Below, one piece after another: positions 2,554 to 30,305 of a stretch of DNA of 38,524 nucleotides. The notes under the pieces are model-generated. The model made no database searches. It was given only the letters and a program-made list of their open reading frames with translations, and was not told the origin of the DNA. This DNA is from Methanosarcinales archaeon. GTDB taxonomy: Archaea; Halobacteriota; Syntropharchaeia; Alkanophagales; Methanospirareceae. Position 1 is the first letter of the stretch; every line of letters begins with the position of its first letter. The stretch lies in NCBI GenBank assembly GCA_025464325.1, contig JAODGH010000024.1:1-38524 (forward strand), written 5' to 3'. Made by a program: the position numbers and the translations under genes.

Positions 2554-2580
2554 TCCTGTCATAGACATTTTTAATTGTTG

Positions 2581-3390
2581 ATGAACCCTCGATACATACC
2601 CTTTATAACACTATCCGAATTGAAACAGCGTGCATGGATCACCCTTTCGGGCTGTAACTTCCGCTGTCGGGGTTGTTTCAGTATCGCCCGTGAGCCGCGA
2701 GGAGCACCTATGTCGGTCGAGCAATTGATTGCGTTGCTAAAACATGCATCATCCACGTATTACGGTGATACGCAACTGCAGGAGGTGATAATTACCGGTG
2801 GCGAACCCACGTTGAACCGTGATTATCTCGTCCACCTTATGGCGGAGCTGAATAAACTCACCGACTGGACTGTGCTCGATACAAACGGGTATCTTCTGGA
2901 TGAGCCATACCTCAACGAGCTGATAGAGGTGGGCTTGAAGGAGGTCATGTTTGACCTGAAGGCATGGGACGAAGAGCTCCACAGATGGTACACCGGGCAT
3001 TCCAACCGTAGAATCATCGCAAACATACGAGCAGCCTATGGCAAGGTTCGGATGGTGGTGAACACGGTTTACATACCGGGTATAGTGGCAGAACCGGAGA
3101 TAGAGCAGATAGCCATGTTTTTAGCACGGTTGGATGTGAACGGCGAGATAGATTATCGAATAAACCGTTTTCGTGCGGAATTGAGTCCCGAACCGATAGC
3201 TCGCAACCCGTATGATTATGAGATAGAACGAGCATACGCACTCGTCGCGAAATACATGAGAAATGCGGTGATAGGTAAGAGTTGCGTTCGCGAGCGAAAT
3301 ATAGCCGAGAAACGGGGCTGGATTACCGTATTTCCGGATGGTACATTGAAGCGACGCACCCTGGATGATTACCGCTCTACATTACGCTAA
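2581..3390 (+). CDS. Radical SAM protein, activating-enzyme-like
   Basis: About 269 residues from the ATG at 2581; an in-frame TTG-TTG precedes it but the ATG matches the TATA spacing. The 4Fe-4S/SAM cluster motif CNFRCRGC (CxxxCxxC) is at about residues 24-31, and a GGEPT SAM-binding motif follows (IITGGEPTLN). The layout resembles glycyl-radical activating enzymes and the AmmeMemoRadiSam/PflA-like group, but there is no extra ferredoxin domain and I cannot name the substrate. Its last codons overlap, tail to tail, the end of the Dop-like gene on the other strand by 4 bp. Its place next to the ligase-family operon is notable, but a functional link is not shown. Confidence 0.8.
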   Translation: MNPRYIPFITLSELKQRAWITLSGCNFRCRGCFSIAREPRGAPMSVEQLIALLKHASSTYYGDTQLQEVIITGGEPTLNRDYLVHLMAELNKLTDWTVLDTNGYLLDEPYLNELIEVGLKEVMFDLKAWDEELHRWYTGHSNRRIIANIRAAYGKVRMVVNTVYIPGIVAEPEIEQIAMFLARLDVNGEIDYRINRFRAELSPEPIARNPYDYEIERAYALVAKYMRNAVIGKSCVRERNIAEKRGWITVFPDGTLKRRTLDDYRSTLR

Positions 3391-4913
3391 TAAATCACTT
3401 TTTCGGGATACAGTCGCTTCGCCTCCGACAGAATCTCATCTATATCTTTATTGATCGGTATCTCATCCCTGTTCAGCATGAACGGTTCATCCAGTAGTAT
3501 CTTCGCCTCGTTCAGAACCATCGTTGACCAGCTAACACTTCTGACATGCTCTCGATACCGTTTCATCATCTCGGCTTTAAAGTATTCCCGGGTCTGCTCC
3601 GGTGCGTTCAGCAGTGCATACTTCACCCGTTTCAAGTACGAACCCGCATCCACACCCGGCAGTTCACGTTCCGCGAATGCCACTGACTCTCTGGGATTGA
3701 AGAGACTGCTACCTTTTACATCGCCAGCACCGGTATAAAAACGCAGATTATCGTCCAGTAACGCGTACTGGTTGCATATACTTATGCCTTCTGAAGCGCT
3801 CTTCGGCTCATAATTCACAAGCAGAGCCAGTTTCGTCACCCAGTCGATCCCATCCACATAATGCTCAAGACATCGTGCCTCCAGTTTCTCCAGTAACCTG
3901 CTCAGGCATTTGAGCCCTATATCGCCCCATTCATCACCTCCGTGCTCGCTATTCAGCCGTTCCATCGCATCCAGATAGAAGTTCAGTATACTTACCGCAT
4001 CGGTTACCTCTCCGTTCTTCAGTTTTATCTTCCACTCGCATTCCCGGGTATCCATTGATAATTCCTTGAATGCCCGTACCGGATCCTCTATCACCGGTGC
4101 ATTATCGAGTAAACCCGCTTCAAAGGCGCAAATCAACAGTACCTGTGTTATATCACGCAGAAATATCGAATATTCGCACCTCAAACCCTCGTAGTGGATA
4201 TCGTGCAGTCGCCAGTACCGCCTTGCTGCATGTGGCTGATCCCTCGTATTCAATATGCCACGATCAACGGTAGTGGAAAGCGAGGATTTCTGAACCACGA
4301 ACATAGCCCGTGGCGAGATCACAAACTTCACTCCTTCCTTGCCCACCAACTCGCCGGAGACGACATCACCCGAGCCAGTGAAGATTATCCGCGTGATAAA
4401 CCACGGTATAAGTGCTCGTTCCACCCGTCTCCAATCACTGCAGGCTTCCCGTAGTGTCAGGATATTACCGTGTGTGGCGTACGTAATGCTCTTAACCCGT
4501 TTCCACACACCCTTATCCACTGTGAGATTGGCTACATTGTTCTTGTGTACCATGACCTCCTTCTTCAATGCCAGGCTGGCTTCTCTTGCACCCAGTAGAG
4601 CGTATATCTCCGATGCTTTCTCGTATGCCATCGCATCAATGGGGTTATTATAGGATGGCGTCGATATCTCCAGATGACCCATATCGTTGTAAATCCGGGA
4701 ACCGTTATTACCAAATGTGGTGGATATCCGTGACTCGTGTACCTCCTGTGATACTTCTGTCACTATATCCCAGACGACATCATGAGAGAAATTCCGCCTC
4801 TTCAAACCTTGAATCGTGGCATTCACGAGCATTGTGGGGTTTAATTTCGCTTTCACACTCACCGGATATTCCTGTTCTATGCCCCTTATCTTGCCCTCTG
4901 TCACCGTACTCAT
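3387..4913 (-). CDS. PafA/Dop family protein, Dop-like (Pup deamidase/depupylase-like)
   Basis: 508 residues, close to the ~500 of bacterial Dop. The N-terminal family signature is GIEQEY (Glu13, Glu15), the metal/ATP-binding strand of the glutamine-synthetase-like fold. NGSRIYNDMGHLEISTP follows at about 70-86 and aligns with Dop's NGARLYVDHAHPEYSAP, placing Asp77 at the catalytic Asp, with Dop-type rather than PafA-type spacing. VHKNN, LIPWFITRIIFTGSG, ILNTRDQPHAARRYWRLH and a C-terminal domain (TREYFKAEMMKRYREHV) also match. The Dop loop before the Asp appears shortened, and the usual HEN motif reads HGN. This is the last gene of the operon: 4 bp after the previous stop, with a GAGGGA ribosome site. 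Expected role: ATP-dependent hydrolysis or ligation at a Gln/Glu side chain of a small protein tag. Family is clear; direction of reaction is inferred. Confidence 0.88.
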   Translation of the reverse strand: MSTVTEGKIRGIEQEYPVSVKAKLNPTMLVNATIQGLKRRNFSHDVVWDIVTEVSQEVHESRISTTFGNNGSRIYNDMGHLEISTPSYNNPIDAMAYEKASEIYALLGAREASLALKKEVMVHKNNVANLTVDKGVWKRVKSITYATHGNILTLREACSDWRRVERALIPWFITRIIFTGSGDVVSGELVGKEGVKFVISPRAMFVVQKSSLSTTVDRGILNTRDQPHAARRYWRLHDIHYEGLRCEYSIFLRDITQVLLICAFEAGLLDNAPVIEDPVRAFKELSMDTRECEWKIKLKNGEVTDAVSILNFYLDAMERLNSEHGGDEWGDIGLKCLSRLLEKLEARCLEHYVDGIDWVTKLALLVNYEPKSASEGISICNQYALLDDNLRFYTGAGDVKGSSLFNPRESVAFAERELPGVDAGSYLKRVKYALLNAPEQTREYFKAEMMKRYREHVRSVSWSTMVLNEAKILLDEPFMLNRDEIPINKDIDEILSEAKRLYPEKVIY

Positions 4914-4917
4914 CCGG

Positions 4918-6678
4918 TTATCCCTCTTCTCTATCCCCTCTTCGCTCCTCCGCCTTTATCTCTTCCACCTTCTTCGCTATACTCTCCTCATCCCACCCAT
5001 CCAGCTGATCAAACCTGTAAGTCTTGTTATTGGAATACAGAAGATAATCAAGGTATGGATTCCTGACAATCCTGTTCCTTATCTCACGGCTTATCTCCTC
5101 TTCCCACCCCCTTATGTCCTCTTCCTCCGCCAGCAGCCGAACAAGAACCTGTCTCGTTGATTCGCCCCGACGCCGTTCCCTCAAGAATACCACCACCGCA
5201 CTCGGCATTCGTGCAAGCTCAGGATACCGTTCGAACAGTCTTGAGTATTCTTCACTCGTCGGGCGGCTCATATCTATCTTTATCTTCGGTTCTTTCGTTA
5301 TCGTTATCTTGTTCCAGCTTAGAGCCGCATTCTCAAACTCTGATGCCAGTTTCACACGCAGTTCCGCCCTCGAGTTCTTTGGCGGGAATAAAAGCGCCTC
5401 TCCTAAATCCTCTTCGGTCAGTAAGCGTTCCACACCTATCCTGTCCGCAACATGCTCATATAAATCGTAATCACATAGATTGGTGAAATCAAAAGAAGCC
5501 GCGATCTCTTTCTCGATTCGCTCGTCCATGAGGTACATACTTCTATAATCGAACTTGCCCTTTGGCACGTAATCATATTCAAAATCGTCTATCTCATGCT
5601 TGATCACCCACAACTTCATCGCCCATTCCAGACGCCGGACCACATACATATCTTCAATCAAACCCTGACTGAGCTTGTCACTCAGCCTCTTAAACGTGTC
5701 CAGTGCGTATTCATCCCAGTAGGACGTCTCACGCTCCTCAAATAACTCCTCTATCACCGACAGGTAATAATGATTGATATAATCAATTGCATATTCCGTC
5801 CTGCCATTCATCAATCTTATGCGCCACTCGCCATTTGTATTCGCAGATATCTCTTTAAATGTCTGAAGCGGGTTCCAGATCTCTTCCACACGCGTCAGAT
5901 GCCCCGATTCTATCGCATCTATCACATAAGACGTGAGTGCATTATTGAGCAGTCGGGTGACCTCAGACCGAACACCCTCGCCCGAAGTTACATGAATACG
6001 GTACTTATCCTTTGTACTCAATGGTTCATCCCTGGTTGACAATATAGGCCACTGAGATGGCGATTCTGTAAGAACCCGCCGGGCTACCATCGCTTTGGGC
6101 GAAAGGACATATTTTATACCGTCCTTCTCGGCTACGAATCCTCCAGCACCGAAAAATATCTTCCGCAGTACCAGGAACGGTATCAGTAAATTCTCCTTAC
6201 CCACAAACTTCTTACGATTCGCCACGTACGATTCATGCGTACCGCGACTATAACGCTTATCTATCTCGACATTCGCCTTCCAGCACTGTATATACGTGTT
6301 CTGGTTGCCCCGTCTCTTCAGTTTCTCCCGATATCGCTCGTTCGCCCTATCCACACCTATCTGCATGTACAGCTCCGCTGCCTTGTCGTATTTCAATACC
6401 TCAAACGCATTACGACATTCGGGTGTGGCTATCTCGAGATGACCACCGGTGCATATATAAATACGCGAACCGTTACGCAGGAAACCGTCATTCCGCCGTC
6501 TCAACTTCGAACATATCGCATCCACACCATCAAAGAACTTGTAATCCTCAAGTGCATGGATCACCTCATCCACATGATAAAATCGGGCATAGCGATAAAG
6601 ACCAGGGGATTCTGAGCTTATACCTACCCTGAATTCATGCTCGATCCCCTGCCATCTATTCAGATCCGCATCACCCAT
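4918..6678 (-). CDS. PafA/Dop family protein, PafA-like, with C-terminal extension
   Basis: 586 residues, about 100 longer than bacterial PafA. Family motifs in order are GIEHEF (Glu13, Glu15), FLRNGSRIYICTGGHLEIAT (about 66-85), GTHESY, LIPFLVLRKIFFGAG, ILSTRDEPLSTKDKYRIHV, and the C-terminal domain beginning around FPPKNSRAELRVKLASEFE. They match PafA's [20 protein letters not shown] and INTRDEPHAD with PafA spacing. However, the position of the catalytic Asp (YLDVG in PafA) is Cys76 here (YICTG), and KNN is KAN. After the conserved C-terminal domain there are about 110 extra charged residues, rich in Arg and Glu. It is the middle gene of the operon, 27 bp after the ATPase stop. It may be a Pup-ligase relative that is inactive, works with its neighbour, or uses different chemistry. 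Confidence 0.88.
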   Translation of the reverse strand: MGDADLNRWQGIEHEFRVGISSESPGLYRYARFYHVDEVIHALEDYKFFDGVDAICSKLRRRNDGFLRNGSRIYICTGGHLEIATPECRNAFEVLKYDKAAELYMQIGVDRANERYREKLKRRGNQNTYIQCWKANVEIDKRYSRGTHESYVANRKKFVGKENLLIPFLVLRKIFFGAGGFVAEKDGIKYVLSPKAMVARRVLTESPSQWPILSTRDEPLSTKDKYRIHVTSGEGVRSEVTRLLNNALTSYVIDAIESGHLTRVEEIWNPLQTFKEISANTNGEWRIRLMNGRTEYAIDYINHYYLSVIEELFEERETSYWDEYALDTFKRLSDKLSQGLIEDMYVVRRLEWAMKLWVIKHEIDDFEYDYVPKGKFDYRSMYLMDERIEKEIAASFDFTNLCDYDLYEHVADRIGVERLLTEEDLGEALLFPPKNSRAELRVKLASEFENAALSWNKITITKEPKIKIDMSRPTSEEYSRLFERYPELARMPSAVVVFLRERRRGESTRQVLVRLLAEEEDIRGWEEEISREIRNRIVRNPYLDYLLYSNNKTYRFDQLDGWDEESIAKKVEEIKAEERRGDREEG

Positions 6679-6705
6679 TTTTGTTAATTACACTTTGAAA
6701 AAAGA

Positions 6706-8331
6706 TCAGAAATGCATACCCGTATCTTCCTCTGATATTGACTCATAACCCGAAGCTATCATCTCCTCCGCTCTCCTCTGTACGAACCTGTCAAAGCCCT
6801 CTCTCAGGTGTCTCATGCTCACACCGATATCCTCTATGTTCTTATATTGCTTCTCCAACTCCTCAATTCTGGGACCCGCATCCAGTATCTCTGCCAGTCC
6901 TTCCTCATCCCACATCTTCATCATCGTCGCATCTTCGATCTTGCCGCGTTTCAGCATAAGCAATGTCCGCTCCTCAAGCGCTTTGTCCTTCGCATAGTTG
7001 AATATCTGTGCGATAAACCGCCCGGTAACCGTATTTCCGCGTTTTATACGCCCTATCTCCGTCTCCACGTATTTGTCTTCGAACATATATTCCACAAGCT
7101 CACGTACCAGAGCCTTCCTCGCTTCTTCTTCACCGCCCACTTCCTGGACCAGCCGGCGATCGAGCGGGACTTTCTTCACATATATCTCCGCGATAGAATA
7201 CGCTGTCTCTTTATCCGCCTTGGGCACCTCTATGATCTTATCAAATCGGGCTCTAAACGCTGAATCTATCAGGTGTAACCGATTCGTAGCACCAATCACC
7301 GTGAGATGCGGATGTAGCGAATAGAACCCGTCGAGTATATCGAGTAACTGCCCCGTCACCCGTTCCGGAGCACCAGATGAGCCGGTGTACATGCCCCGTT
7401 CCTGCGCTAATGCGTCTATCTCATCGAAGAATATCACACCATAATCGTTCTCGCCCTCTTCCAGCTTCTCATTCGCCATCTTGAAGACCATACGTACATT
7501 TCGCTCGGACTCACCCAACCACATACTGAATAACTCGCCTGCACCCACTTTCACGAATTCGCAGTTGGGCAGTGCCGATGCCAGTGCCTTTGCACACATC
7601 GTCTTACCACAGCCCGGTGGTCCATACATGAGTATCCGCCGTGAACGCTCGCCATATCGCGAATAATCGTCAGGATTGAGCATCGGGAGGATGATACTGT
7701 TTATCAGTTCCTGTTTCACCTCTTTCAACCCACCGATATCATTGAAACTTACACCAGGGTTCTTCGTTATCTCATAGCGCGTGAACTCCCGCGTCTTGTA
7801 ACTCTTCAGTATATCATAAGTACCCGGAAGTAGTCCGACCTTCATACCCTCCTTCAGTTTCATCCTGTCATCCTCACGTAATCGCTTGTAGATCTTACCG
7901 CGTCCCTTACCCGTGGATATCTCGCCTATCCATCCATCTCCATCTTTCCGTAGCTCCTCTATCTCGCCTACTTCCAGATCCACCATCCGGTCGTAGACCC
8001 TGGTGATACCGATCGTGAACCCGCTTGGATTGTTCTTATCCGGAATACGCCCTATGAATACATATTTGCCCACTTCCAGGCTTTCTATCTCTTCATCTGT
8101 TAACGTACCATATGGTAAAGCCTTTAATGCACCATTTAAATTTACGATTGCACCCTCATTGAGCTTCTCTACTACGAATCCGCAATCTAAAGGTGGCGAC
8201 CTCGATTTAGAAACGAGCTTCTCTAAGTCTTCCTTATACGCTTCTGCCTCTTCATACTTACGTCTCAGTCGCCGGTACTCACTCTCCAACCGCTCATACT
8301 CGTATCTTGGAATATAATCCTCCCTTTCCAT
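6706..8331 (-). CDS. arc: ARC/Mpa-type proteasomal AAA+ ATPase
   Basis: 541 residues in the ARC/Mpa order: N-terminal coiled coil (about 10-42), two OB-type beta domains (about 50-115 and 118-185), then one AAA module starting VSFNDIGGLKEVKQEL. Walker A GPPGCGKT is at 237-244, Walker B VIFFDEID at about 299-306, the aromatic pore loop WLGESE near 271-276 and the sensor/arginine region IGATNRLHLIDSAFRARFD follow. A helical tail ends ...SEEDTGMHF. In bacteria this ring recognises pupylated proteins by its coiled coils and threads them into the 20S proteasome. The tail here lacks the Tyr of the HbYX/GQYL docking motif (MHF instead). A TATA box about 33 nt upstream suggests it heads the operon with the two PafA/Dop relatives. 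An archaeal PAN was considered, but the double OB layout and the neighbours favour ARC. Confidence 0.87.
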   Translation of the reverse strand: MEREDYIPRYEYERLESEYRRLRRKYEEAEAYKEDLEKLVSKSRSPPLDCGFVVEKLNEGAIVNLNGALKALPYGTLTDEEIESLEVGKYVFIGRIPDKNNPSGFTIGITRVYDRMVDLEVGEIEELRKDGDGWIGEISTGKGRGKIYKRLREDDRMKLKEGMKVGLLPGTYDILKSYKTREFTRYEITKNPGVSFNDIGGLKEVKQELINSIILPMLNPDDYSRYGERSRRILMYGPPGCGKTMCAKALASALPNCEFVKVGAGELFSMWLGESERNVRMVFKMANEKLEEGENDYGVIFFDEIDALAQERGMYTGSSGAPERVTGQLLDILDGFYSLHPHLTVIGATNRLHLIDSAFRARFDKIIEVPKADKETAYSIAEIYVKKVPLDRRLVQEVGGEEEARKALVRELVEYMFEDKYVETEIGRIKRGNTVTGRFIAQIFNYAKDKALEERTLLMLKRGKIEDATMMKMWDEEGLAEILDAGPRIEELEKQYKNIEDIGVSMRHLREGFDRFVQRRAEEMIASGYESISEEDTGMHF

Positions 8332-8446: not shown

Positions 8447-9466
8447 ATGAAAGAAGAGAAGCGCAAAATTCAATTGACTGGTGGCTCTACCTTCACGATC
8501 TCACTGCCAATAAAATGGGCGAGGAATGCTGGTCTCAAACAGGGTGACGAGCTCATAATCAGGCTGCGTGGTGATAAATCTCTTCTGATCACACCGGTGA
8601 AGGTAAAGAGGGATCAACTGAATTGTGCGGAGTTTACTCTCTCAGAGCATGAGGATTTCGAGGGCAATTTCCGGCTCCTCATTTCTTATTACCTTGTTGG
8701 CTATGACATAGTGAAGCTCACGTCTCCGAAGGGATTCAGTGCAGAGGAGAGGAAATGGATAAAAGAGGAAGTGAGGAGACGATTGATCGGTATGGAAGTT
8801 GTAGGTGAGTCGGCACGCGAGATAATACTGAAGAGCTTTCTCAAATATGAAGATTTTACACTCCAGGATGCGATTCACAGTATGTCGAAGATTATAGTCT
8901 CCATGCTTGGTGATGCGATCTCCTCGCTTCGTAAGAGGGACAACAATCTCGCAGAGGACATAATAGAGCGTGACGATGAGATAGACCGGTTTTATCTCCT
9001 CATAGTGCGACAGCTTAAAGCTGCAATGAGTGATCCCGAGCTGGCGAAGAAGATAGGCGTGGATCGGCATCGGGAAAGCCTGGGATACCGGATAATAGTG
9101 AAGAGTATGGAACGTATTGGCGATCATGTAGAGAATATAGCGAAGAATTCAACGAAAGTGATGGTACCGGAAGAGGATATAAAGAGCATAGAGCGTATTG
9201 GCTACACCATAATAGAACTCTTCAACAAGACGCTGGATGCATTGGCAGATATGAACATAAGTAAAGCGAACGAAGCGATAAAAGATGCAAAAAGAATGAG
9301 TGGGATGTCAGAAGCGTTAAGCGAGCATCTGATAAGTGAAGAGGACGGCAATACCGATAAGGTACACGCGCTCTCTGTGTTGCAGAGTCTGGAGAGAATA
9401 GGGAAATACTGCGAGGATATAGCGGAAGTTACGATAAATATGGGCATAAAGGGCGCGGAAGAGTGA
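8447..9466 (+). CDS. PhoU-like regulator with N-terminal AbrB domain
   Basis: 339 residues. The first ~45 residues (RKIQLTGGSTFTISLPIKWA...GDELIIRLRGDKSLLITP) are a SpoVT/AbrB swapped-hairpin DNA-binding domain. The rest is helical with two PhoU repeats (about 120-220 and 225-335), each with an E/D-rich metal-binding signature such as RERDDEIDRFY and SMERIGDHVENIAKN, and LQSLERIGKYCEDIAE. This fusion is a known archaeal type, thought to couple phosphate-transport status to transcription. No pst genes are in the window. The ATG is preceded by a purine-rich leader. It is divergent from the ARC operon, and co-regulation is possible but not shown. Confidence 0.88.
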   Translation: MKEEKRKIQLTGGSTFTISLPIKWARNAGLKQGDELIIRLRGDKSLLITPVKVKRDQLNCAEFTLSEHEDFEGNFRLLISYYLVGYDIVKLTSPKGFSAEERKWIKEEVRRRLIGMEVVGESAREIILKSFLKYEDFTLQDAIHSMSKIIVSMLGDAISSLRKRDNNLAEDIIERDDEIDRFYLLIVRQLKAAMSDPELAKKIGVDRHRESLGYRIIVKSMERIGDHVENIAKNSTKVMVPEEDIKSIERIGYTIIELFNKTLDALADMNISKANEAIKDAKRMSGMSEALSEHLISEEDGNTDKVHALSVLQSLERIGKYCEDIAEVTINMGIKGAEE

Positions 9467-13425: not shown

Positions 13426-16407
13426 TTAGTTTAGTGGTTCTATCGCGATATAGACCTCTCTGTCACCTATCTTCCAGATTTTACCGTACATTTGATCGTT
13501 TCTTCCGCGTTTTAGCTCCGCCGCGAGCGTTTCCGTACATATGTAATCCCTGAAACCTTCTACCGCTTCCTCCACTTCTGCGTCACCATCGTACATTATC
13601 CGTATCTCTGCTGTGTAGTCTAAATCGAGGTCTTTACGCATACCCTGCACACGTCTTACTATATCCCGGACCAGCCCTTCGTACCTCAGTTCTTTGTCCA
13701 GTCTGGTATTCAGGAACAGGCTCAGCGTATCATCAACGTCCACCCGTGTATAGTCCGTTGCGGACACCGCAGACGATTCTACATCCAATCGCACTTCCCG
13801 CACGTTCAATTCATCCTTCAATATACCTGCAAGATTACGCACCTTTGCCAGTATAGCCGCATTACTGCTGACGATAACGACCTCTCTCAATGGCTGTCTT
13901 ATCTTTATACCGGCATCTGATCTTGCACGTCTGCCCGCTTCCACAAGCTTAATAACCACTGTCATCGCTTCCTCCAGTTCGGAATCTATAACCGTTTCGA
14001 CGGGTGTGGGATAATCACAGAGATGCACACTATCCGGCTGATCTTTATCGCGCACAAGGTTCTGATAGATGTGCTCGGTAATGAACGGTACGAAAGGCGC
14101 AAGCAACATGCACAGGGTCACCAGTACTTCATACAGGGTCTGGTACGCGCATTCCTTATCAAAATTCTCCTCCGGTATCCAGAACCGCCGTCTCGAACGC
14201 CTTATGTACCAGTTACTGAGATCGTTAACCACGAATTCCTCCAGCTTACGTGCGGCAACGTGGATATCAAATCGTTCTATCGCTTCTATCACTTCGCCCA
14301 TCACGGTGTTCAACTTCGATACAATCCAGCGGTCCATATAATTCCGTTTATCAACCGGTATAGCTTCCTCGCGCTTCTTCGGGCTGAACTGATCTATTAT
14401 GGCATAGGTGATGAAGAAGAAATACGAGTTCCAGAGCGTATTCATGAACTTCTTACTGCGTTCTCTCATCTCCCGTTCCGAGAATCGGATATCATCATAG
14501 GGCGGTCCCGCAGTGAAGAAATACCACCTCATTGCGTCCGCCCCCTCATTGCGGAATATCGGATTTATATCCACAATGTTGCCTTTACTCTTACTCATCT
14601 TCACCCCGTTCTCATCCAGGATGTGCCCCAGAGAAAGCACATTCAGATACGGCGGCTCGTTGAATACCGCGGTTGAAACTGCCAGCAGTGAATAGAACCA
14701 TCCCCGGGTCTGATCTATCGCTTCGGTGATGAAATCGGCGGGGAAATTGCGCTTGAACTCTTCGATATTCTCAAATGGATAGTGCCATTGTGCAAACGGT
14801 GCTGAACCCGAATCGTACCAGCAGTCTATGACCTCCCGCACTCGTCTCATCTCGCCACCACAATTCTCACATCTCAGTACTACCTGGTCTATGTACGGGC
14901 GATGAAGATCGTCCGGTAGATCAGAGAGAGCACGTGCTTTCAGCTCATCCACACTGCCCACACAGTATTCGGCACCGCATGATTCACATATCCACAGGTT
15001 CAGTGGTGTGCCCCAGAACCGTTCTCTACTCAGTGCCCAGTCCTCTATATTCTCCAGGAAGTTGCCAAATCGTCCGTATTTCAGGTGACCAGGATACCAG
15101 TTTATCTTCTCGTTATTCGCAATCAGACTATCGCGCAGTGATTTCATGGCAATAAACCACGATTCACGTGCATAATACAGCAGCGGCGAGTCACAACGCC
15201 AGCAGAACGGATAAGAATGCAGATATTTCGCCTCGCGGAAGAGTATGCCCCGTGATTTCAACCATTCTATTATGACCCTGTCCGCATCCTTCACAAATAC
15301 ACCCGTCAGTGGTGGGACATCATCGGTGAATCGTCCTTCACTATCTACCGGTTGTGTAAAGCCCATATTGTTCTTGCGGCAGATCTCATAGTCCACCTCC
15401 CCAAATGCGGGTGCTATGTGCACGACACCGGTACCCTCGTCCAGACTGACGAACTCCGCGGTGAGTACTTTATGTGCCGCCCCGCCCGTTATTTTCGCAT
15501 AATCGAACAGCGGCTCATAAGCCAGTCCTTCAAGTGTTTCTCCGCTGAAACGTTCCAGCACCTCATAGTCATGGTCGCACAGTGCCTCCTCCAGTCGAGC
15601 TTCCGCAAGTATCAGGATACTGTCCTGCATTTCTTCTTTTACCCGTACCTTCACGTAGGTGTGTGTAGGATGCACAGCGAGTGCTATATTGCCTATCAGC
15701 GTCCATGGTGTGGTGGTCCACGCGAGCATATAGACCGGTGTATCAGACGGTGTATCAGATTTCAGCCTGAACTTCACGTATATTGAAGGGTCTTCTACCT
15801 CTTTATAGCCCTGTGCCACCTCATGTGTGCTCAGCGCAGTCTCACACCGTGGACAGAACGGTACAACTTTATGACCTTTATATAACAACCCTCGCTTCCA
15901 TATCTCTTTCAGTGACCACCATACCGACTCTATATAACTATTCATAAATGTGATGTATGGATTATCCATATCAATCCAGAATCCCACACGTTTTGTGGCA
16001 TTCACCCATTCTTTCTCATACCGGAACACCGATTCACGGCATCTTCTATTGAACTCCTCGACACCAAACTGCTCAATCTCCCCCTTTGTATTTAGTCCCA
16101 GTTCTTTCTCCACTTCTATCTCTACCGGCAGCCCGTGTGTGTCCCAGCCAGCCTTACGCGGCACATAAAAACCTCGCATCGTCTTGTAGCGCAGTACAAG
16201 GTCTTTAATCACACGGGTGAGGATATGTCCGGGATGTGGAAGCCCGTTTGCCGTTGGTGGTCCTTCAATAAATACGAACGTGTCTCGCCCCCTTCTCTGC
16301 TCCACACTACGTTCAAACGTATGTTCTCGCTCCCAGAGCGCCAATATGTTCTCTTCCAGTCGTACGAAATCCACCCTCTGCTCTTCCTTCCTGAAAGGCG
16401 TTGACAT
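13426..16407 (-). CDS. ileS: Isoleucyl-tRNA synthetase
   Basis: About 993 residues. The start is taken as the second ATG (16407) because GGTGGAG directly precedes it; ATG 16419 is the alternative. It is a class I aminoacyl-tRNA synthetase that charges tRNA-Ile. HIGH-type motif HPGH is at about 58-61 (PPTANGLPHPGHI), the KMSKS motif reads KMSKSKGN near 602, and the WDTHGLPVEIEVEKELG block distinguishes IleS from ValS and LeuS. The CP1 editing domain is between (TTTPWTLIGNIAL; GTGVVHIAPAFGEVDYE). Zinc-type Cys pairs are present in CESCGAEYC and CENCGGEM. The C-terminal anticodon-binding and tail domains are complete. It lies 177 bp downstream of ilvN on the same strand. Confidence 0.97.
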   Translation of the reverse strand: MSTPFRKEEQRVDFVRLEENILALWEREHTFERSVEQRRGRDTFVFIEGPPTANGLPHPGHILTRVIKDLVLRYKTMRGFYVPRKAGWDTHGLPVEIEVEKELGLNTKGEIEQFGVEEFNRRCRESVFRYEKEWVNATKRVGFWIDMDNPYITFMNSYIESVWWSLKEIWKRGLLYKGHKVVPFCPRCETALSTHEVAQGYKEVEDPSIYVKFRLKSDTPSDTPVYMLAWTTTPWTLIGNIALAVHPTHTYVKVRVKEEMQDSILILAEARLEEALCDHDYEVLERFSGETLEGLAYEPLFDYAKITGGAAHKVLTAEFVSLDEGTGVVHIAPAFGEVDYEICRKNNMGFTQPVDSEGRFTDDVPPLTGVFVKDADRVIIEWLKSRGILFREAKYLHSYPFCWRCDSPLLYYARESWFIAMKSLRDSLIANNEKINWYPGHLKYGRFGNFLENIEDWALSRERFWGTPLNLWICESCGAEYCVGSVDELKARALSDLPDDLHRPYIDQVVLRCENCGGEMRRVREVIDCWYDSGSAPFAQWHYPFENIEEFKRNFPADFITEAIDQTRGWFYSLLAVSTAVFNEPPYLNVLSLGHILDENGVKMSKSKGNIVDINPIFRNEGADAMRWYFFTAGPPYDDIRFSEREMRERSKKFMNTLWNSYFFFITYAIIDQFSPKKREEAIPVDKRNYMDRWIVSKLNTVMGEVIEAIERFDIHVAARKLEEFVVNDLSNWYIRRSRRRFWIPEENFDKECAYQTLYEVLVTLCMLLAPFVPFITEHIYQNLVRDKDQPDSVHLCDYPTPVETVIDSELEEAMTVVIKLVEAGRRARSDAGIKIRQPLREVVIVSSNAAILAKVRNLAGILKDELNVREVRLDVESSAVSATDYTRVDVDDTLSLFLNTRLDKELRYEGLVRDIVRRVQGMRKDLDLDYTAEIRIMYDGDAEVEEAVEGFRDYICTETLAAELKRGRNDQMYGKIWKIGDREVYIAIEPLN

Positions 16408-23121: not shown

Positions 23122-23155
23122 TGCGTCTCATACATTGCCATACGGGTTGGTTGAA

Positions 23156-26100
23156 ATGCGATGCAAAATATACTACTTCAGAAACATACATGTACCGTTG
23201 ATACTGATATCGCTGTTATTACTGTTTACAATGCCGCTGGTTGTTACTCCGGTGGATGCGGGGTTTAATAAGTCGTCCAACAATACAGCCAATACAGCTT
23301 ACAGGCTGGTGTTCGTGCTTGGAACGGCGGAGAATTTAGCAGCTCTTGAAAATGCTGCTATGGATGCCACGTTGAACGCAACGGTAAAAGTTGTGTTATA
23401 TAACGCGAGTGAAGCGAGGTTACATGATTTCAGTAATGCAAGCTTTGTGTTCCTGGCTTCTCTTGATAATGCCACCGTTGAATGCGTAAATCAGACGTTA
23501 AACGCGAGTGCGTATGTTTTTGCATACAATCTCACGCCAGATATAAGCATCGGGAATGTGGATGATGAGAATATTACGGAATACTGGGTCTATGGCGGCG
23601 ATGAAAACATAAGGGATATGATCCTGTATATATGTAGCAGATTTTACGGTACGAAAACGGACTTTGAATCGCCGAAACCACCTGCAGGAAGACCAAAGGT
23701 GGCGTTTGTTGTGTCTGAGAAGAGTTCATATGCGGCATGGCTCAAAAAGGCGGCAGATGATGTGTATATCTCTCGTTGTCTCAATGTTTCTATCTTTACA
23801 TATAGCGTTGATGATCCATCAAGCTACAGTGGTATGGATTTGAGCGATCAGGATGTGATCTTCCTATGGATGATAGGTTTTCCGGTTCAGGATGCTATTC
23901 ACGAGACGGTGCTTAATGCCAGGGCAAGAGGTGCAAGCGTGATTACGACCAGCTTTACCGATGTTTACAATATGTCGTCCGTAAATCTATCCTCTCCTGA
24001 GTTTGCTGATATCTCGGCATACTGGTCCAACGGAGGCACGGAGAACATGAGGCGGGTGCTCCTGTTCATGGGTGTCAAACTATGTGATGTTCCGATAGAG
24101 GCGTTTGGTCTCGAGAAGGTGCCACCACCCGTAGAAATACCTCAGTTTGGTATATACCATCCAGAAGCAAAGAAGGCGGGTGTCGGCATCGATGGACTCG
24201 GGATATTCGCGTCGGTAGATGATTATCTTGCATGGTATAAAGGGAGTGGTAGATACAACGCGAGTGCACCGACCGTGGGCATCCACTACTATTACTCCTC
24301 CGGCAAGTACGGCTCATATATGACGCTCGATCCACTCATAAGGATGATCGAGAATAAAGGAGCAAATGTGATATTTGCCAGTTTCTCATACAAAGATGCA
24401 AACACTACCGAATATCTCCTAAAAGATAACGAATCGCTTGTTGATTCCCTTATCATAATTAATTCGTTCAGGCTGTGGTATCACTCGGAGAATGCTGGCA
24501 TCGACTACTTGCAACAGATCAACGTGACACCGCTGAAAGGAATAATCAGCTATTACATGAACGAAACGGTGTGGAACGAGAGTAATGGGCTATCTCCTTC
24601 TGAGCTTGCATGGCAGATCGCACTTCCTGAGCTTGATGGAGAGACGGAATTCATCCTGTTTTCTGGAAAGGAGAAGGATCCCGTGAGCGGTGAGTACTAC
24701 TATAAACCGTTCACCTCTCAGCTTGAATGGATCACAGATAGAGCGATATCGTGGGCAAAACTTCATGATAAGGCAAATTCGGATAAGAAAGTCGCGATCA
24801 TATACTACAATCACGGTGGAGGGAAAGACAATATCGGTGCGAGTTACCTGGATATGGCACCAAGTATAGCTAATCTGCTTGACAACATGAGTGCAGAGGG
24901 ATACGATGTAGGTAACAGGGCACCGCCCGGCGGCACAGAACTGATCCAGCTTATGCTAAGACAGGGTCGAAACATTGGTACATGGGCACCGGGAGAACTC
25001 ACGAGCATGGTGGAGAACGGGACCGTAATTTTGATTCCTGCGGGTAAGTATGAGAAATGGTTCAACGAACTTCCAGCGGCAAAACGTCAGGAGGTGATTG
25101 ATAAGTGGGGTAATCCCCCCGGCAAAATTATGGTCTATGAGAATGCAAGTGGTAAGTACATTGTGATACCGGGTTTGAAATTCGGAAAGGTGTTCTTAGC
25201 GCCGCAACCCACACGCGGATACTTACAGGATCAGAAGGTGTTATACCATGACCGGGAACTCCCACCGCACCATCAGTATATTGCATTCTACCTATGGCTT
25301 AGAAAGGAGTTTGGTGCAGATGCGATTGTCCATTTTGGAACGCATGGCACGCAGGAATGGCTGCCTGGAAAAGAGACGGCATTATCAGTGCGAGATTGCT
25401 GGCCTGCGATACTGATACAGGACCTCCCAGTGGTTTATCCCTACATTATGGATAATGTGGGTGAAGGAACGCAGGCGAAACGCAGAGGCAATGCGGTCAT
25501 CGTTGACCACCTGACACCGGCTCTTGTGCCTTCAGGGCTTTATGGCGATTTCTGGAATTTATCGGAAGCAGAGATGGGGTACGAGTCCGCAACTGACCAA
25601 CTATTGAAGAACGAATACTGGAATTCAACTCTTAATTATGTTATGGACATCGGTCTTGACCGAGAATTCAATCTAAATATGGACCAGCTGAGGACGAACA
25701 GAACAGCATTTGAGGCTTTCCTGAAGAACGTTCTGGATCCATATCTTGAGGATCTGGAGAACGAGATTATACCCTATGGACTGCACATACTCGGTGAGTC
25801 CCCGGCAGACGAAGAGCTGGTAGAGATGTTAGCGGTAATGCTGGGTGATGAATTTATGGAGCATGTTAAGGCGGTATCTCCAACCGATTATAAGAATAAA
25901 TCAATGGAACTGTTGAATGCGACGATACTGGGGGGCATTAATGTTACAGATGCCGAGAATCAGATACTTGGACCCGGGAATGGGTCTGCAAATATAACGG
26001 CATATCTGAATACCGCTATCAAATATGCAAATGACATACGAGCGTGTAATATTGAGATACCGCGGATACTGGCGGGGCTAAGTGGCAGGTATGTACCACC

Positions 26101-27772
26101 GAAAGTCGGTGGCGATCCGATAAGACACCCTGATGCACTCCCGACCGGTAACAACTTCTATTCTTTTGACCCGCGGATGATACCAACAGAAGAGGCATGG
26201 ACTGTAGGACGAGCCATGGGTGATGAATTGCTGAGGCAATACAAAGAAGAACATAACGGGACGTATCCGCACAGGGTAGGTTTCGTGCTATGGGCAGTAG
26301 AGACAATGCGACATTGGGGCGTTATGGAATCGGAGATACTATACCTGATGGGAGTGAAGCCGAAATGGGATTCGAAGGGGCGTGTTAAGGGTGTTGAGTT
26401 ACTAAGTACTTCTGATTTTGCACTTGATGGCGAAGTCCGCCCTCGCATTGATATACTGGTTACAGCATCGGGACTATACCGCGATACATTTCCAGATAAG
26501 ATAAAACTCATTGATGAGGCGGTACGACTTGCATATACCGCAAATGATACAGGCACTCAGAACTACATAAGGATCGATTCTGATGCGATATACACGAATC
26601 TGAGAGCTACCGGCGATTACACGGATACGGAAGCGAGGAGACTGTCACAGGCGAGGATTTTTTCTGAAGCACCCGGTAACTATGGTACAGGTCTTCCGGA
26701 TGTAATAGCAGCAAGCAATACCTGGACGAATGAGCAGAAACTGGCAGAGTTGTACATCAATCGTGTGGGGTTCGTGTATGGTAAGGATGAATGGGGTCAG
26801 CAGAATACGGCACTCTTCAGACAGAATCTCGAAACCGTGGATGCTGCGGTACATAGTGAGACCTCAAACATCTACGGCGTGATGGACAATGATGACTATT
26901 TCCAGTATCTGGGAGGACTGGCACTTGCAGTGAGAAATGTACGGAAGGACCAAAATACTCCAGATTTGTATATAACCAATCTCAGGGGCGCGTATCATCC
27001 AGAGACAGAGACACTGGAGAGTTTCTTAAGAAGGGAGTTTTATGCACGTTACATCAATCCAAAATGGATTGAAGGAATGATGGAGCATGGCTATTCAGGA
27101 GCGAGGGAGATAGACCACGAGTTCATAGAGAACTTCTGGGGGTGGCAGGTAACAATGCCAGATATGATCACGCAGGATATGTGGAACAAAGTCTATGAAG
27201 TCTATGTCCGGGACAAATACAATCTTGGTCTGAATGATTTTTTCGACAAAAACAATCCATTCGCACAACAAGCCATCGTCGCGAGAATGCTTGAAGCCAT
27301 TCGTAAAGATTACTGGAAACCTTCAGATGACGTAAAGACCACTCTGGCAGAAATATATCATGAATCGGTGGAGAAAAAAGGTGTAACATGCTGCCATCAC
27401 ACATGTGGCAATCCACTACTGGCAGAGTATATGCAAGGCATACTTTCTGCTTCCATTTCCGAAGAGTCATCGACACTTCCCAGAGCCATAGGCGGTGGTG
27501 GAGGAGCTCGCCATATCGAAACGGAGGAAGAAATGGGTGGGGGTGCCACAAATGTGACAGAAACCACCGGTGTGAGTAAAACAGGTGAAGAATTGAAGAA
27601 ACCACCGGAAACGACCGAGCAAAGGGGGCGAGTAATGAAAGAGGAAACGCCAGTAGAAAAGCCGTCGCCGGTATTACCTATATCGGGAGCGCCATTGATG
27701 GGTATAGTAATAGTGATAGTGTTTTTGGTGCTGATCGGAATTGGATTGGGCTATAAGCGTAAGCGACTGTGA
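23156..27772 (+). CDS. cobN: Secreted, membrane-anchored CobN/BchH-like chelatase subunit
   Basis: About 1538 residues from ATG 23156; an in-frame TTG at 23135 is less likely. The N-terminus is a signal peptide (RCKIYYF, then a hydrophobic run to about residue 35). The C-terminus has a Pro/Thr/Glu-rich linker, one membrane helix (about 1508-1532) and a KRKRL stop-transfer tail, so the body should lie outside the cell. CobN/BchH signatures include HFGTHGTQEWLPGKETALS near 726 and TCCHHTCGNP near 1415. CobN inserts cobalt into corrin rings in aerobes, using CobS/CobT ATPases that are absent here. With TolQ- and ExbD-like neighbours this paralog more likely captures metal or tetrapyrrole at the surface. 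The function is inferred. Confidence 0.87.
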   Translation: MRCKIYYFRNIHVPLILISLLLLFTMPLVVTPVDAGFNKSSNNTANTAYRLVFVLGTAENLAALENAAMDATLNATVKVVLYNASEARLHDFSNASFVFLASLDNATVECVNQTLNASAYVFAYNLTPDISIGNVDDENITEYWVYGGDENIRDMILYICSRFYGTKTDFESPKPPAGRPKVAFVVSEKSSYAAWLKKAADDVYISRCLNVSIFTYSVDDPSSYSGMDLSDQDVIFLWMIGFPVQDAIHETVLNARARGASVITTSFTDVYNMSSVNLSSPEFADISAYWSNGGTENMRRVLLFMGVKLCDVPIEAFGLEKVPPPVEIPQFGIYHPEAKKAGVGIDGLGIFASVDDYLAWYKGSGRYNASAPTVGIHYYYSSGKYGSYMTLDPLIRMIENKGANVIFASFSYKDANTTEYLLKDNESLVDSLIIINSFRLWYHSENAGIDYLQQINVTPLKGIISYYMNETVWNESNGLSPSELAWQIALPELDGETEFILFSGKEKDPVSGEYYYKPFTSQLEWITDRAISWAKLHDKANSDKKVAIIYYNHGGGKDNIGASYLDMAPSIANLLDNMSAEGYDVGNRAPPGGTELIQLMLRQGRNIGTWAPGELTSMVENGTVILIPAGKYEKWFNELPAAKRQEVIDKWGNPPGKIMVYENASGKYIVIPGLKFGKVFLAPQPTRGYLQDQKVLYHDRELPPHHQYIAFYLWLRKEFGADAIVHFGTHGTQEWLPGKETALSVRDCWPAILIQDLPVVYPYIMDNVGEGTQAKRRGNAVIVDHLTPALVPSGLYGDFWNLSEAEMGYESATDQLLKNEYWNSTLNYVMDIGLDREFNLNMDQLRTNRTAFEAFLKNVLDPYLEDLENEIIPYGLHILGESPADEELVEMLAVMLGDEFMEHVKAVSPTDYKNKSMELLNATILGGINVTDAENQILGPGNGSANITAYLNTAIKYANDIRACNIEIPRILAGLSGRYVPPKVGGDPIRHPDALPTGNNFYSFDPRMIPTEEAWTVGRAMGDELLRQYKEEHNGTYPHRVGFVLWAVETMRHWGVMESEILYLMGVKPKWDSKGRVKGVELLSTSDFALDGEVRPRIDILVTASGLYRDTFPDKIKLIDEAVRLAYTANDTGTQNYIRIDSDAIYTNLRATGDYTDTEARRLSQARIFSEAPGNYGTGLPDVIAASNTWTNEQKLAELYINRVGFVYGKDEWGQQNTALFRQNLETVDAAVHSETSNIYGVMDNDDYFQYLGGLALAVRNVRKDQNTPDLYITNLRGAYHPETETLESFLRREFYARYINPKWIEGMMEHGYSGAREIDHEFIENFWGWQVTMPDMITQDMWNKVYEVYVRDKYNLGLNDFFDKNNPFAQQAIVARMLEAIRKDYWKPSDDVKTTLAEIYHESVEKKGVTCCHHTCGNPLLAEYMQGILSASISEESSTLPRAIGGGGGARHIETEEEMGGGATNVTETTGVSKTGEELKKPPETTEQRGRVMKEETPVEKPSPVLPISGAPLMGIVIVIVFLVLIGIGLGYKRKRL

Positions 27773-27832
27773 ATGATAGATACATACATACATTATACAT
27801 ACATAAATAAAGACCAAATCTTACATATGCAC

Positions 27833-28411
27833 ATGAACGAATGGCGCAGTTATAAATCGCCGGGAATACCGGACGACCAGTTTGTCAGGTCGAAAGCGGG
27901 CTTGACGCGTGCCGAGATTCGTTCAATCATCATATCAAAAGCGCAAATAACGGGTAACGAGCGTGTACTTGATGTCGGTACGGGCTCGGGCAGCGTATCC
28001 ATCGAGTTCGCACGGTTGGGCTGCGAAGTCACTGCGGTCGAGAAGGACAGGGATAATTTCGAGATCGCAAGAACGAATATAGAACGATTCGGGTTGGACG
28101 GAAAGATAGAGCTCGTATTTGGTGAGCTGGAGAACGTTGTTCTAAACGGTAGTTTCGATGTCGTATTCTTCGGTGGCACCGATAATCTGGCTAAAGCATT
28201 TGAGAATGCATTTGCTCATTTAAAGCATGGAGGCAGGATCATCATCGCTGCAGTACGGTTAGAGACCGTGGTGGAAGCGATAAACGTATTTAAGAGCCGT
28301 GGTATCGATCGAGAGATTCTGAACATATGCCTGAACCGGGGTAAAGACCTGGGAGGGAAGACCGCGCTTGCACCTTCGTATCCCGTATTTCTTATTTATG
28401 GTGAGAAATGA
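27833..28411 (+). CDS. cbiT: Cobalt-precorrin-6B C15-methyltransferase (decarboxylating)
   Basis: 192 residues from the ATG at 27833, where the family N-terminus begins (MNEWRSYKSPGIPDDQFVRS); the open frame extends to 27773. Class I SAM methyltransferase with motif I VLDVGTGSGSVSIEFA and the acidic ribose-binding VTAVEKD. CbiT methylates C15 and decarboxylates the C12 acetate side chain in anaerobic cobalamin synthesis. Its stop overlaps the start of cbiL by 4 bp (ATGA), showing a coupled operon. CbiE, its usual partner, is not in the window. Confidence 0.93.
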   Translation: MNEWRSYKSPGIPDDQFVRSKAGLTRAEIRSIIISKAQITGNERVLDVGTGSGSVSIEFARLGCEVTAVEKDRDNFEIARTNIERFGLDGKIELVFGELENVVLNGSFDVVFFGGTDNLAKAFENAFAHLKHGGRIIIAAVRLETVVEAINVFKSRGIDREILNICLNRGKDLGGKTALAPSYPVFLIYGEK

Positions 28412-29130
28412 AGCTGTATGGAATAGGAGTAGGACCTGGCGATCCCGAATTGCTTACCCTCAGGGCATACCGTATTCTGAAAGAGGTTGATCTGATAGTT
28501 GCTCCCCGGTCACGAGTGGGCAGGAAGAGCCGGGCGTTGCTTATCGTTGAGCAATATATAAAAGAACGAGCGGCAAACCGGCGACCCACAATCGTCGAGC
28601 CGGTATTCCCGATGACGAGGAACCGGGCAGAACTCGAGTTGTACTGGCATAAAGCGAAAGATGCTGTACTTAAGAGCATGGATGACATGCGAGCCGACGG
28701 AAAAGAGTGTGAAACGTTTGCGTTTATTACTCTGGGCGATCCAAGCCTTTACTCCACATTCTACCGATTCCTGGATATATTTAGAGATTACGTGGATGAG
28801 GTAGAAGTGATCCCGGGCGTGACCTCCTTCTCCGCCTGTTCTGCTACCGCCCGGATTCCGGTTGTCGAGGGTTATGAGGTTGTTTCGGTCGTTCCTGAAG
28901 TGAACGATAGAACGATAGAGCTGATAGACAGATCCGATTCGGTGATATTACTCAAACCAAAGAATATGGAGCGTATAAAAGAACGAATAGGAGATCGAGA
29001 AGCGTTAATGTGTGTTAAAATAGGATTCAATGATCAGGAGCTGGTGATGGGCAATCTGAACGAGATCGAGGTCCCGGATCCTTATCTCGTTACGCTTATC
29101 ATTAAGAAAGGAGTGAGAAATAGAGTATGA
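28408..29130 (+). CDS. cbiL: Cobalt-factor II C20-methyltransferase
   Basis: 240 residues. Tetrapyrrole methylase fold with the GxGxGDPELLT signature at the N-terminus (YGIGVGPGDPELLTLRA), the LGDPSLYSTF motif near 111-120 and VIPGVTSFSACSA near 137-149. CbiL adds the C20 methyl group that is later lost on ring contraction. It overlaps cbiT upstream and cbiF downstream by 4 bp each. Length is normal for the family. Confidence 0.93.
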   Translation: MKLYGIGVGPGDPELLTLRAYRILKEVDLIVAPRSRVGRKSRALLIVEQYIKERAANRRPTIVEPVFPMTRNRAELELYWHKAKDAVLKSMDDMRADGKECETFAFITLGDPSLYSTFYRFLDIFRDYVDEVEVIPGVTSFSACSATARIPVVEGYEVVSVVPEVNDRTIELIDRSDSVILLKPKNMERIKERIGDREALMCVKIGFNDQELVMGNLNEIEVPDPYLVTLIIKKGVRNRV

Positions 29131-30305
29131 AACCGAAAGTGGTTTTTGCGGGTGCGGGACCTGGCGATCCCGAATTGCTGACACTACGGGCTCGAAGAGA
29201 GATTGAGGATGCGGATGTTATTGTATATGCGGGCTCACTCATCAATCGAGCGGTCCTGGACTATGCGAAGGATGAAGCAGTACTGATAGATAGCCATGGC
29301 AAGACCAGAGAGGAACTCATTGCGATCTTTGAGCGGTACGTGAACGCGGGCAAGAAGGTTGTTCGGTTACATTCGGGCGATTTGAGTTTCTATTCCGCAA
29401 TACAGGAGCAGATGGCGCTTTTAGATTCGAAAAGAATCGAATACGAGCTTGTGCCGGGTGTATCCTCGTTATCTGCAGCTTCTGTATCTCTTAAGAGAGA
29501 ACTCACATCTCCCGGTGTATCGCAGACGTTGATAATAACGAAACCATCTGGTAAGACCGGCAAACCGGGTGGAGAGCGTATAGCGGAACTGGCAAGGCAC
29601 GGTGCCACGATGGTTATCTTTCTCGGCGTGCATCTCATAGATGAAATCGTGTCAGAACTGCTTGTGGGCTATCCGACAGATACGCCCGTTGCGGTAGTGC
29701 ATAAAGCGTCATGGCGCGAAGAGCGAATAATAGAAGGCACTCTGGCAGATATAGCCGGAAAGGTTAAGACAGCGGGCTTTTCGGGGCATTCATTGATAAT
29801 AGTGGGTGACGTGCTCAGGCATACGGGTGTTTCGGTCCTGTATTCGGGCACCAGGGATGATGTTACGGTCAAACGTAGAGATAAAAGAGGGATAGCCATC
29901 TTCTCACTTGCACAGAAATCGGTTACAATTGCGGAACGGGTAAGAAACCTGCTCTTAGATCGGGGCTACGATGTGAAATGGGTCTGCCCGGTAGAGATTT
30001 CATGTGACAGTGCGGATGAGCGTGTTGAAAGCATATACAGAGCCATACGGGATAGTTTCCGCGAGCATTATAATATTATCGCTATTCTGCCGATGGGCAT
30101 TTTAGTGCGAGCGATAGAGCCGGTGAAAAAGACCGAGGACCCGTGGGTGGTTTGTATAGAAGAGAATGGCAGATGGGTCATACCCGTGTTGAACGGGCAT
30201 AGGGGTGCTAACGAGTTTGCACAGATGATTGCAGAAGCGCTATCAGCAGAGGCGGTGATAACAACATCAGAGCGGGACACTTCCTCCTCTACTATCATTC
30301 AATAA
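29127..30305 (+). CDS. cbiF: CbiF-CbiG fusion (C11-methyltransferase + CbiG N-terminal part)
   Basis: 392 residues in two parts. Residues 1 to about 245 are CbiF (cobalt-precorrin-4 C11-methyltransferase): FAGAGPGDPELLTLRARR, VYAGSLIN, RLHSGDLSFYSA and VPGVSSLSAASVSL. From about 252 (RGIAIFSLAQKSVTIAERVR) the sequence is CbiG-like, including AILPMGILVRAIEPVKKTEDP, then VIPVLNGHRGANEFA and AVITTSERD. CbiG opens the ring lactone and releases acetaldehyde. Only the CbiG N-terminal region is present, ending soon after the VITT motif. The CbiG C-terminal domain must be elsewhere or dispensable. It overlaps cbiL by 4 bp. Confidence 0.9.
   Translation: MKPKVVFAGAGPGDPELLTLRARREIEDADVIVYAGSLINRAVLDYAKDEAVLIDSHGKTREELIAIFERYVNAGKKVVRLHSGDLSFYSAIQEQMALLDSKRIEYELVPGVSSLSAASVSLKRELTSPGVSQTLIITKPSGKTGKPGGERIAELARHGATMVIFLGVHLIDEIVSELLVGYPTDTPVAVVHKASWREERIIEGTLADIAGKVKTAGFSGHSLIIVGDVLRHTGVSVLYSGTRDDVTVKRRDKRGIAIFSLAQKSVTIAERVRNLLLDRGYDVKWVCPVEISCDSADERVESIYRAIRDSFREHYNIIAILPMGILVRAIEPVKKTEDPWVVCIEENGRWVIPVLNGHRGANEFAQMIAEALSAEAVITTSERDTSSSTIIQ

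Follow-up and report, generated by a model that had tools for sequence, protein, structure and literature searches.

The stretch of DNA analysed here (the window; 38,524 nucleotides, contig JAODGH010000024.1 of assembly GCA_025464325.1) lies in contig 44 of a 1.42 Mb genome of ANME-1 (Candidatus (Ca.) Methanophagales), with a completeness of 94% and a contamination of 0.1%. ANME-1 and Alkanophagales, which have not been cultured, oxidise methane and alkanes and play an important part in the methane cycle; ANME-1 consumes methane in sediments. On the minus strand of the window, from 3387 to 8331, three packed genes encode an ARC/Mpa-like AAA ATPase and two Pup-ligase-family enzymes, called PL1 and PL2, in that order and with intergenic gaps of 27 and 4 bases. 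Together with a small protein encoded elsewhere in the same genome, the candidate tag, the operon very likely forms a complete, divergent archaeal pupylation-type system. The features of the window are as follows.

6706..8331, minus strand: ARC/Mpa-like AAA ATPase, 541 amino acids (AAA domain PF00004, 5.3e-35; AlphaFold2 model; Foldseek)
6709..6723, minus strand: C-terminal tail of the ATPase, TGMHF (TGMH[FY] in relatives; bacterial ARC tails mostly TGQYL)
4918..6678, minus strand: PL1, PafA-like Pup-ligase-family enzyme, 586 amino acids (PF03136, 7.5e-58; Protein Data Bank (PDB) matches of the model; PafA-type residues around the catalytic strand)
6451..6453, minus strand: codon of Cys76 of PL1, at the catalytic-Asp position (Asp64 of C. 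glutamicum PafA; alignment to 4b0t/4bjr)
3387..4913, minus strand: PL2, Dop-like Pup-ligase-family enzyme, 508 amino acids (PF03136, 7.2e-65; best PDB match Dop 4b0r, 2.1e-34; Dop-type loop length; C-terminal TR-x-[YF]F)
4683..4685, minus strand: codon of Asp77 of PL2, equivalent by alignment to catalytic Asp94 of A. cellulolyticus Dop
8447..9466, plus strand: divergent PhoU/AbrB-type regulator gene (PF01895, 6.3e-32)

An ARC-type ATPase and two PafA/Dop paralogs in an archaeon were the core of the original prediction, which was read from three minus-strand open reading frames (ORFs) and their motifs. The ORFs and translations agree with it, including the motifs GIEQE/GIEHE, NGSRIY and TRDQP/TRDEP in PL1 and PL2, and the identification is confirmed by hidden Markov models, by predicted structures and by order-wide conservation in named relatives (ANME-1, Alkanophagales). 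None of the outcomes that had been named as speaking against it, namely enzymes belonging to another glutamine-synthetase-like family, an ATPase grouping inside archaeal PAN/Cdc48 or flanking genes with bacterial best hits, was found.

Two Pup-ligase-family enzymes and an Mpa-like ATPase

The distribution of the genes was followed in a sample of 394 genomes of the phylum, 53 of them from the order, 5 from elsewhere in the class and 336 from other classes. Pup-ligase genes occur in 52 of the 53 ANME-1/Alkanophagales genomes, in 0/5 genomes from the other orders of the class and in 0/336 from the other classes of the phylum. Across the order the gene order is the same, mostly behind a divergent PhoU gene, and protein identity is ~60-95%. 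Therefore, the operon is not a chance arrangement.

Both enzymes belong to the Pup-ligase family by PF03136 (cut-off 25 bits), with 220 bits for PL2 and 197 bits for PL1, and sequence comparison with solved structures places them closest to Dop and PafA. The 11 best PDB matches of an AlphaFold2 model of PL1 (29-row alignment, mean predicted local distance difference test (pLDDT) 75) are all Dop or PafA, with a best E value of 5e-28, and ranks 1-28 of a Foldseek search with the ATPase model (22-row alignment, mean pLDDT 76.8) are all mycobacterial Mpa, with a best E value of 2.8e-25, matches that may be helped by the bacterial relatives contained in the alignments behind both models. The PL1 model also gives weak matches to YbdK and glutamate-cysteine ligase.

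In the ATPase model, residues 9-43 form a helix (coiled coil), strand runs (OB-like) span 49-107 and 120-178, and the AAA domain covers ~200-480. By sequence, models for PAN, Mpa and Cdc48 score about equally and none of their cut-offs is passed; the ARC/Mpa equivalog of NCBIfam (TIGR03689) gives 159 bits, versus a cut-off of 504.75. A profile comparison of the N-terminal part alone with bacterial ARC was not significant, and in a tree the ANME-1 ATPase falls outside the bacterial ARC clade.

The metal and ATP ligands listed for Dop are Glu8, Glu10, Tyr92, Glu99, His155 and His241 (PMC8599861). All of them are invariant in the ANME-1 enzymes (39/39 PL1 and 37/37 PL2), and the catalytic Asp is kept in 37/37 PL2. 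When the residues that separate PafA from Dop (Table 1 of PMC7947786) are compared, PL1 agrees with PafA near the catalytic strand (Phe, a one-residue insertion, Gly and Ala) and has Pro at position 15, where PafA has Ala. PL1 is the more conserved of the two enzymes and keeps Trp W455 of the C-terminal domain. In PL2 the loop has the length typical of Dop, and the C-terminal domain contains the TR-x-[YF]F segment. The spacing between GIExE and NGxR is 53-54 residues in PL1 and PL2, versus 66-70 in Dop and 38-40 in PafA, such that neither enzyme has a full Dop-loop. These signature residues lean toward PL1 as a ligase and PL2 as a depupylase/deamidase.

A third, PL1-like paralog is found in six ANME-1 genomes (L227:2039-3523, L228:8918-10423 and L229:4095-5672, with partial copies in L230, L231 and L232). 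It lies away from the operon, and neither a tag nor an operon-type ATPase was detected on the stretch fetched around it. Where the regions are present, the catalytic-position Cys is kept, TRDxP is lost and the metal-ligand region is altered, so that catalysis of the usual kind is improbable for this paralog.

Several neighbours of the operon were also described. The PhoU/AbrB gene adjoins the operon in nearly all relatives of family f1 with contigs that reach that far, and it is probably a conserved neighbour outside the system. A fusion of PL1 and PL2, suspected from open frames of ~1,130-1,870 amino acids, was ruled out, given that the ORFs are separate genes with stops. Farther away, the window carries an IS3-type transposase remnant over two overlapping frames (235-1066; integrase core PF00665 in the second ORF) and a corrinoid/tetrapyrrole gene group (23135-30305), in which a 1545-residue CobN/Mg-chelatase-type protein is followed by a tetrapyrrole methylase-CbiG fusion.

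A small protein with a conserved Gly-Glu end

A candidate for the tag was found when the small ORFs surrounding the operon were all compared across 41 loci. In 30 of them, a member of one conserved small-ORF family, mostly ~80-100 amino acids long, lies directly downstream of PL2 and on its strand. The N-terminal part is acidic (35-56% Asp+Glu) and disordered-looking, the middle is charged and helical-looking, and the C-terminus is nearly invariant, with the form NKKIMPYEIYAT-[S/A]-G-[E/Q]. The commonest C-terminus is NKKIMPYEIYATSGE, and the 30 loci end in SGE (27), AGE (2) or SGQ (1). Variation is almost absent from the last 12 residues, whereas the N-terminal half drifts. Pup has been described as a protein of 50-90 amino acids with a C-terminal G[EQ] (PMC2588565), and the ANME-1 tag is likewise a small protein of this kind with a terminal G[EQ]. 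In the bacterial loci that were compared, Pup lies directly after Dop and ends in GGE or GGQ. The sole Gln-ending tag found (L140:7111-7368; the same gene in L062, genome G038) parallels the bacterial pair PupQ/PupE.

A profile search finds the tag in 48/394 genomes of the phylum sample, all 48 of which also have the enzymes, and all listed matches extend to the last position of the model. Tag and enzymes occur together in 48 genomes, enzymes only in 4, the tag only in 0 and neither in 342 (Fisher p 1.7e-57, uncorrected for relatedness). In three of the four genomes with enzymes only (G020, G029 and G031), PL2 lies at a contig end, and the fourth (G041) yielded no more than fragments of PL. 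Searches for the tag and the enzymes in viral contigs found none. Two tag copies each are present in G034 (contig C191) and G044 (C27 and C156); on contig C191 the tag and PL2 are each present in two copies of opposite orientation, which may reflect an assembly artefact or an inverted duplication.

In the genome of the window, the tag gene is absent beside the operon and from the window, and is present on contig 34, at 14517-14783 on the minus strand, where it encodes an 88-residue protein, MDVVVLEGMEEEEAEEEGEILEGDDEYVKTDEKEYSDTSKDKEMAAIMERLKVREKKEKAADLVSKLKGKKKVNKKIMPYEIYATSGE. A ribosome site, GGGAGG, stands in front of the gene, which precedes a phosphoribosyl pyrophosphate (PRPP)-synthetase gene (prs) and overlaps it by four bases. 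The tag adjoins prs in four congeners as well, and lies behind PL2 in two others. Retention of the tag after relocation argues for a functional tie to the enzymes. The site where some relatives of the same genus carry the tag gene is occupied in the window by a radical-SAM (activase-like) gene (2575-3390), convergent with PL2, the last four bases of which overlap the PL2 stop region.

At codon positions 1, 2 and 3 of the last 15 tag codons, the minor-allele fraction is 0.004, 0.007 and 0.343; here only the codons before the last six are independent evidence, given that the pattern used to collect the sequences fixed the last six residues. The concentration of variation at the third position points to strong selection on the tag protein. 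Among described families, the tag has no match in NCBIfam, and its sole Pfam match, DUF3731 at 0.098, is at chance level.

Proposed mechanism and alternative readings

The genome of the window also encodes two subunits of the 20S proteasome (200 and 188 bits), a canonical PAN with the tail MFA (583.6 bits, cut-off 500) and a Cdc48 ending in AYA. From these parts a mechanism can be inferred that covers conjugation, the choice of the ligating paralog, the role of Cys76, contact between tag and ATPase, and delivery to the proteasome. The tag carries a C-terminal Gly-Glu, and a glutamine-synthetase-fold enzyme, for which PL1 is the likelier candidate, would phosphorylate the gamma-carboxylate of the tag Glu with ATP and attach that Glu to lysine residues of the targets. 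In this reaction, Cys76 could serve as a base or could accept the activated Glu as a thioester. PL2, with its Asp kept, would hydrolyse the isopeptide bond, recycle the tag and deamidate the rare Gln-ending form. The coiled coils of the hexameric ATPase would capture the helical middle of the tag, such that tagged proteins are unfolded and then, most probably, handed to the cell's own 20S proteasome. The TG shared with bacterial ARC tails and the conservation of the tail suggest that the ATPase docks, and its coupling to the 20S proteasome is judged likely.

That the system works like pupylation is highly probable and well supported by its anatomy, although a number of results weigh on the other side. 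The Pup model PF05639 finds 0/58 genomes of the class above its cut-off and does not detect the tag, which has no detectable sequence similarity to Pup; the recurrent sub-threshold matches of PF05639 lie inside an aspartate-dehydrogenase-like enzyme, and the rest in other unrelated proteins. PL1 has Cys in 39/39 cases where PafA has its catalytic Asp. Scores of PL1 and PL2 with the PafA and Dop equivalogs (TIGR03686/TIGR03688) are at most 186 bits, versus cut-offs of 551 and 492. The alpha-loop region of PL1 is unlike that of PafA and unlike that of Dop, and PL2 has a PafA-like SS there; therefore, the assignment of roles to PL1 and PL2 is not clean. The ATPase tail, TGMHF or TGMHY, lacks the canonical HbYX/GQYL form and has no penultimate Tyr, the 20S genes lie on contigs other than that of the operon, and ANME-1 already has PAN and Cdc48. 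The system falls short of pupylation proper on two points, homology to Pup and the ligase Asp.

In light of these results, the proposal in the original prediction that a Pup-like route feeds the archaeon's own proteasome is supported, with two corrections. The tag was found and the 20S proteasome is encoded, but feeding is only plausible, given the atypical tail and the presence of PAN and Cdc48. Nor does the route simply duplicate bacterial pupylation: the tag is unlike Pup, PL1 has its Cys, and the enzymes are placed in trees outside the PafA and Dop clades, even though AU (approximately unbiased) tests do not exclude those groupings.

The simplest alternative, bacterial contamination or a chimeric contig, could appeal to surveys that list PafA and Dop only from bacteria (PMC2588565, PMC7947786), but it is refuted and can be given practically no probability. 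The same operon, with its gene order kept and mostly behind the same PhoU neighbour, is found throughout one archaeal order, and a mis-binned or stray bacterial contig, which had been thought unlikely from the start, is thus excluded; identity to the bacterial forms is only 25-31%, and the flanking purA is of archaeal type, with a score above its cut-off. It is also improbable that the enzymes are gamma-glutamyl ligases for another substrate, with the small ORF as an unrelated partner (e.g. a scaffold or adaptor of the ATPase) and its terminal Glu a coincidence. The glutamine-synthetase-fold superfamily does make small molecules too, as the weak YbdK and glutamate-cysteine ligase matches recall, and the tag is without sequence similarity to Pup. 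However, both paralogs sit with an Mpa-type ATPase and with a small protein that has a precisely conserved terminal G[EQ], the one change at the tag end is from E to Q, as in Pup, and it is the C-terminal 12 residues that are held nearly constant as the N-terminal half drifts.

Two further alternatives accept the tagging, and both are rather unlikely. Tagging could be non-degradative, with the ATPase as an unfoldase or remodeller that acts independently of the proteasome and with the tag marking proteins for disassembly or storage, as may hold in bacteria that have Pup and no proteasome. The missing penultimate Tyr, the lack of linkage between 20S genes and operon, and the ability of PAN and Cdc48 to serve the proteasome already are in its favor, whereas conservation of the tail extends to its last residue, with TG plus three residues as in TGQYL, a 20S proteasome is present, and Mpa, which the ATPase model resembles most, is a proteasome activator. 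The other, about equally doubtful, is that PL1 is no ligase: with Cys76, it would be a pseudo-enzyme with a regulatory role or would remove tags as a cysteine-type enzyme, and ligation would fall to PL2, alone or in both directions. In M. tuberculosis the Asp is required in both PafA (Asp57; D57N is inactive) and Dop (PMC5358908), it is kept in PL2 and in the single Thermoplasmata-type enzyme described below, and the third paralog keeps the Cys where that region is present and has lost TRDxP. Yet PL1 is the more conserved enzyme, with all metal ligands, W455 and PafA-type signature residues, and PL2 is the one with the Dop-type loop length and C-terminal segment.

The origin of the two paralogs was addressed with a quick tree of 78 rows, in which one group (99) unites bacterial PafA with Dop, a second (91, with long branches) both ANME-1 paralogs and a third the Thermoplasmata-type enzymes. 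Neither a grouping of PL1 with PafA (p 0.11) nor one of PL2 with Dop (p 0.113) is rejected by AU tests. The tree, in which long branches meet, is compatible both with an old duplication shared with PafA/Dop and with an independent one; the signature residues favor the shared one. A more radical version is considered unlikely: PL1 would ligate through its cysteine, the glutamyl phosphate giving a thioester between the tag and Cys76 from which the tag is transferred to lysine, and the archaeal branch would be separate, with a tag of no recognisable descent from Pup.

Significance and comparison with known systems

Surveys have placed Dop and PafA only in bacterial phyla, with an origin proposed in Actinobacteria (PMC7947786, PMC2588565), and a comparative study of archaeal ubiquitin-like proteins gives only putative Pup-like proteins in Halobacteria (PMC2948915). 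In the open-access literature, to which the search was confined, no earlier report of pupylation in ANME-1/Methanophagales was found. If the system is complete and order-wide, no Pup-type tagging would have been known from archaea before it, as far as that literature goes, and such tagging would not be solely bacterial. The invariant change from Asp to Cys in PL1 and the unrecognisable tag make the chemistry, the tag specificity and the evolution of the pathway testable with recombinant proteins (in E. coli, PafA together with PupE yields a pupylome, PMC7947786), and the predicted tryptic remnant on lysine, IMPYEIYATSGE (+1354.61 Da, calculated), can be searched for in existing metaproteomes. 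If the thioester reading were true, PL1 would be a mechanistic bridge between glutamine-synthetase-type and E1/E2-type conjugation; if the archaeal branch were separate, the origin of the pathway would lie outside Actinobacteria.

A second archaeal operon, with the order ATPase-enzyme-small ORF, is found in Thermoplasmata-type soil metagenome-assembled genomes, in 19/200 genomes sampled in the class (L146:6198-9336, L149:3831-6966 and L210:6285-9381; also L223-L225 and L234-L249). It usually has one Pup-ligase-family enzyme, with the Asp kept, and an ATPase tail GADPMVG. Its small ORF encodes 58-72 amino acids and ends in ...KG[E/Q]GGDRR[A/S/T], where E/Q varies as in Pup, seven residues from the end.

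Small-protein modifiers are known in archaea with a proteasome, namely SAMPs with the E1-like UbaA, and Urm1 (PMC2948915, PMC4569737). In contrast to these, the ANME-1 tag matches no ubiquitin-like family, the operon is without an E1, and the enzymes are of glutamine-synthetase type. PafA of C. glutamicum (4b0t/4bjr) and Dop of A. cellulolyticus (4b0r/5lrt/7oxy) share fold and metal ligands with PL1 and PL2, whereas identity is ~25-31%, equivalog scores are far below the cut-offs and the full Dop-loop is missing.

The closest known system is the bacterial Pup-proteasome system of Actinobacteria and scattered phyla. The ANME-1 system differs from it in its archaeal host, in the order ATPase-PL1-PL2-tag rather than ATPase-Dop-Pup-PafA, in a tag that is unrecognisable as Pup, in the Cys for Asp in PL1, in the TGMH[FY] tail, in its unlinked proteasome genes and in the position of its proteins outside the bacterial clades. 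Both systems comprise two Pup-ligase paralogs, an ATPase with coiled coil, double OB and AAA domains, and a small G[EQ]-ending protein that is encoded right after Dop or its Dop-like counterpart; in both, the cell has a 20S proteasome.

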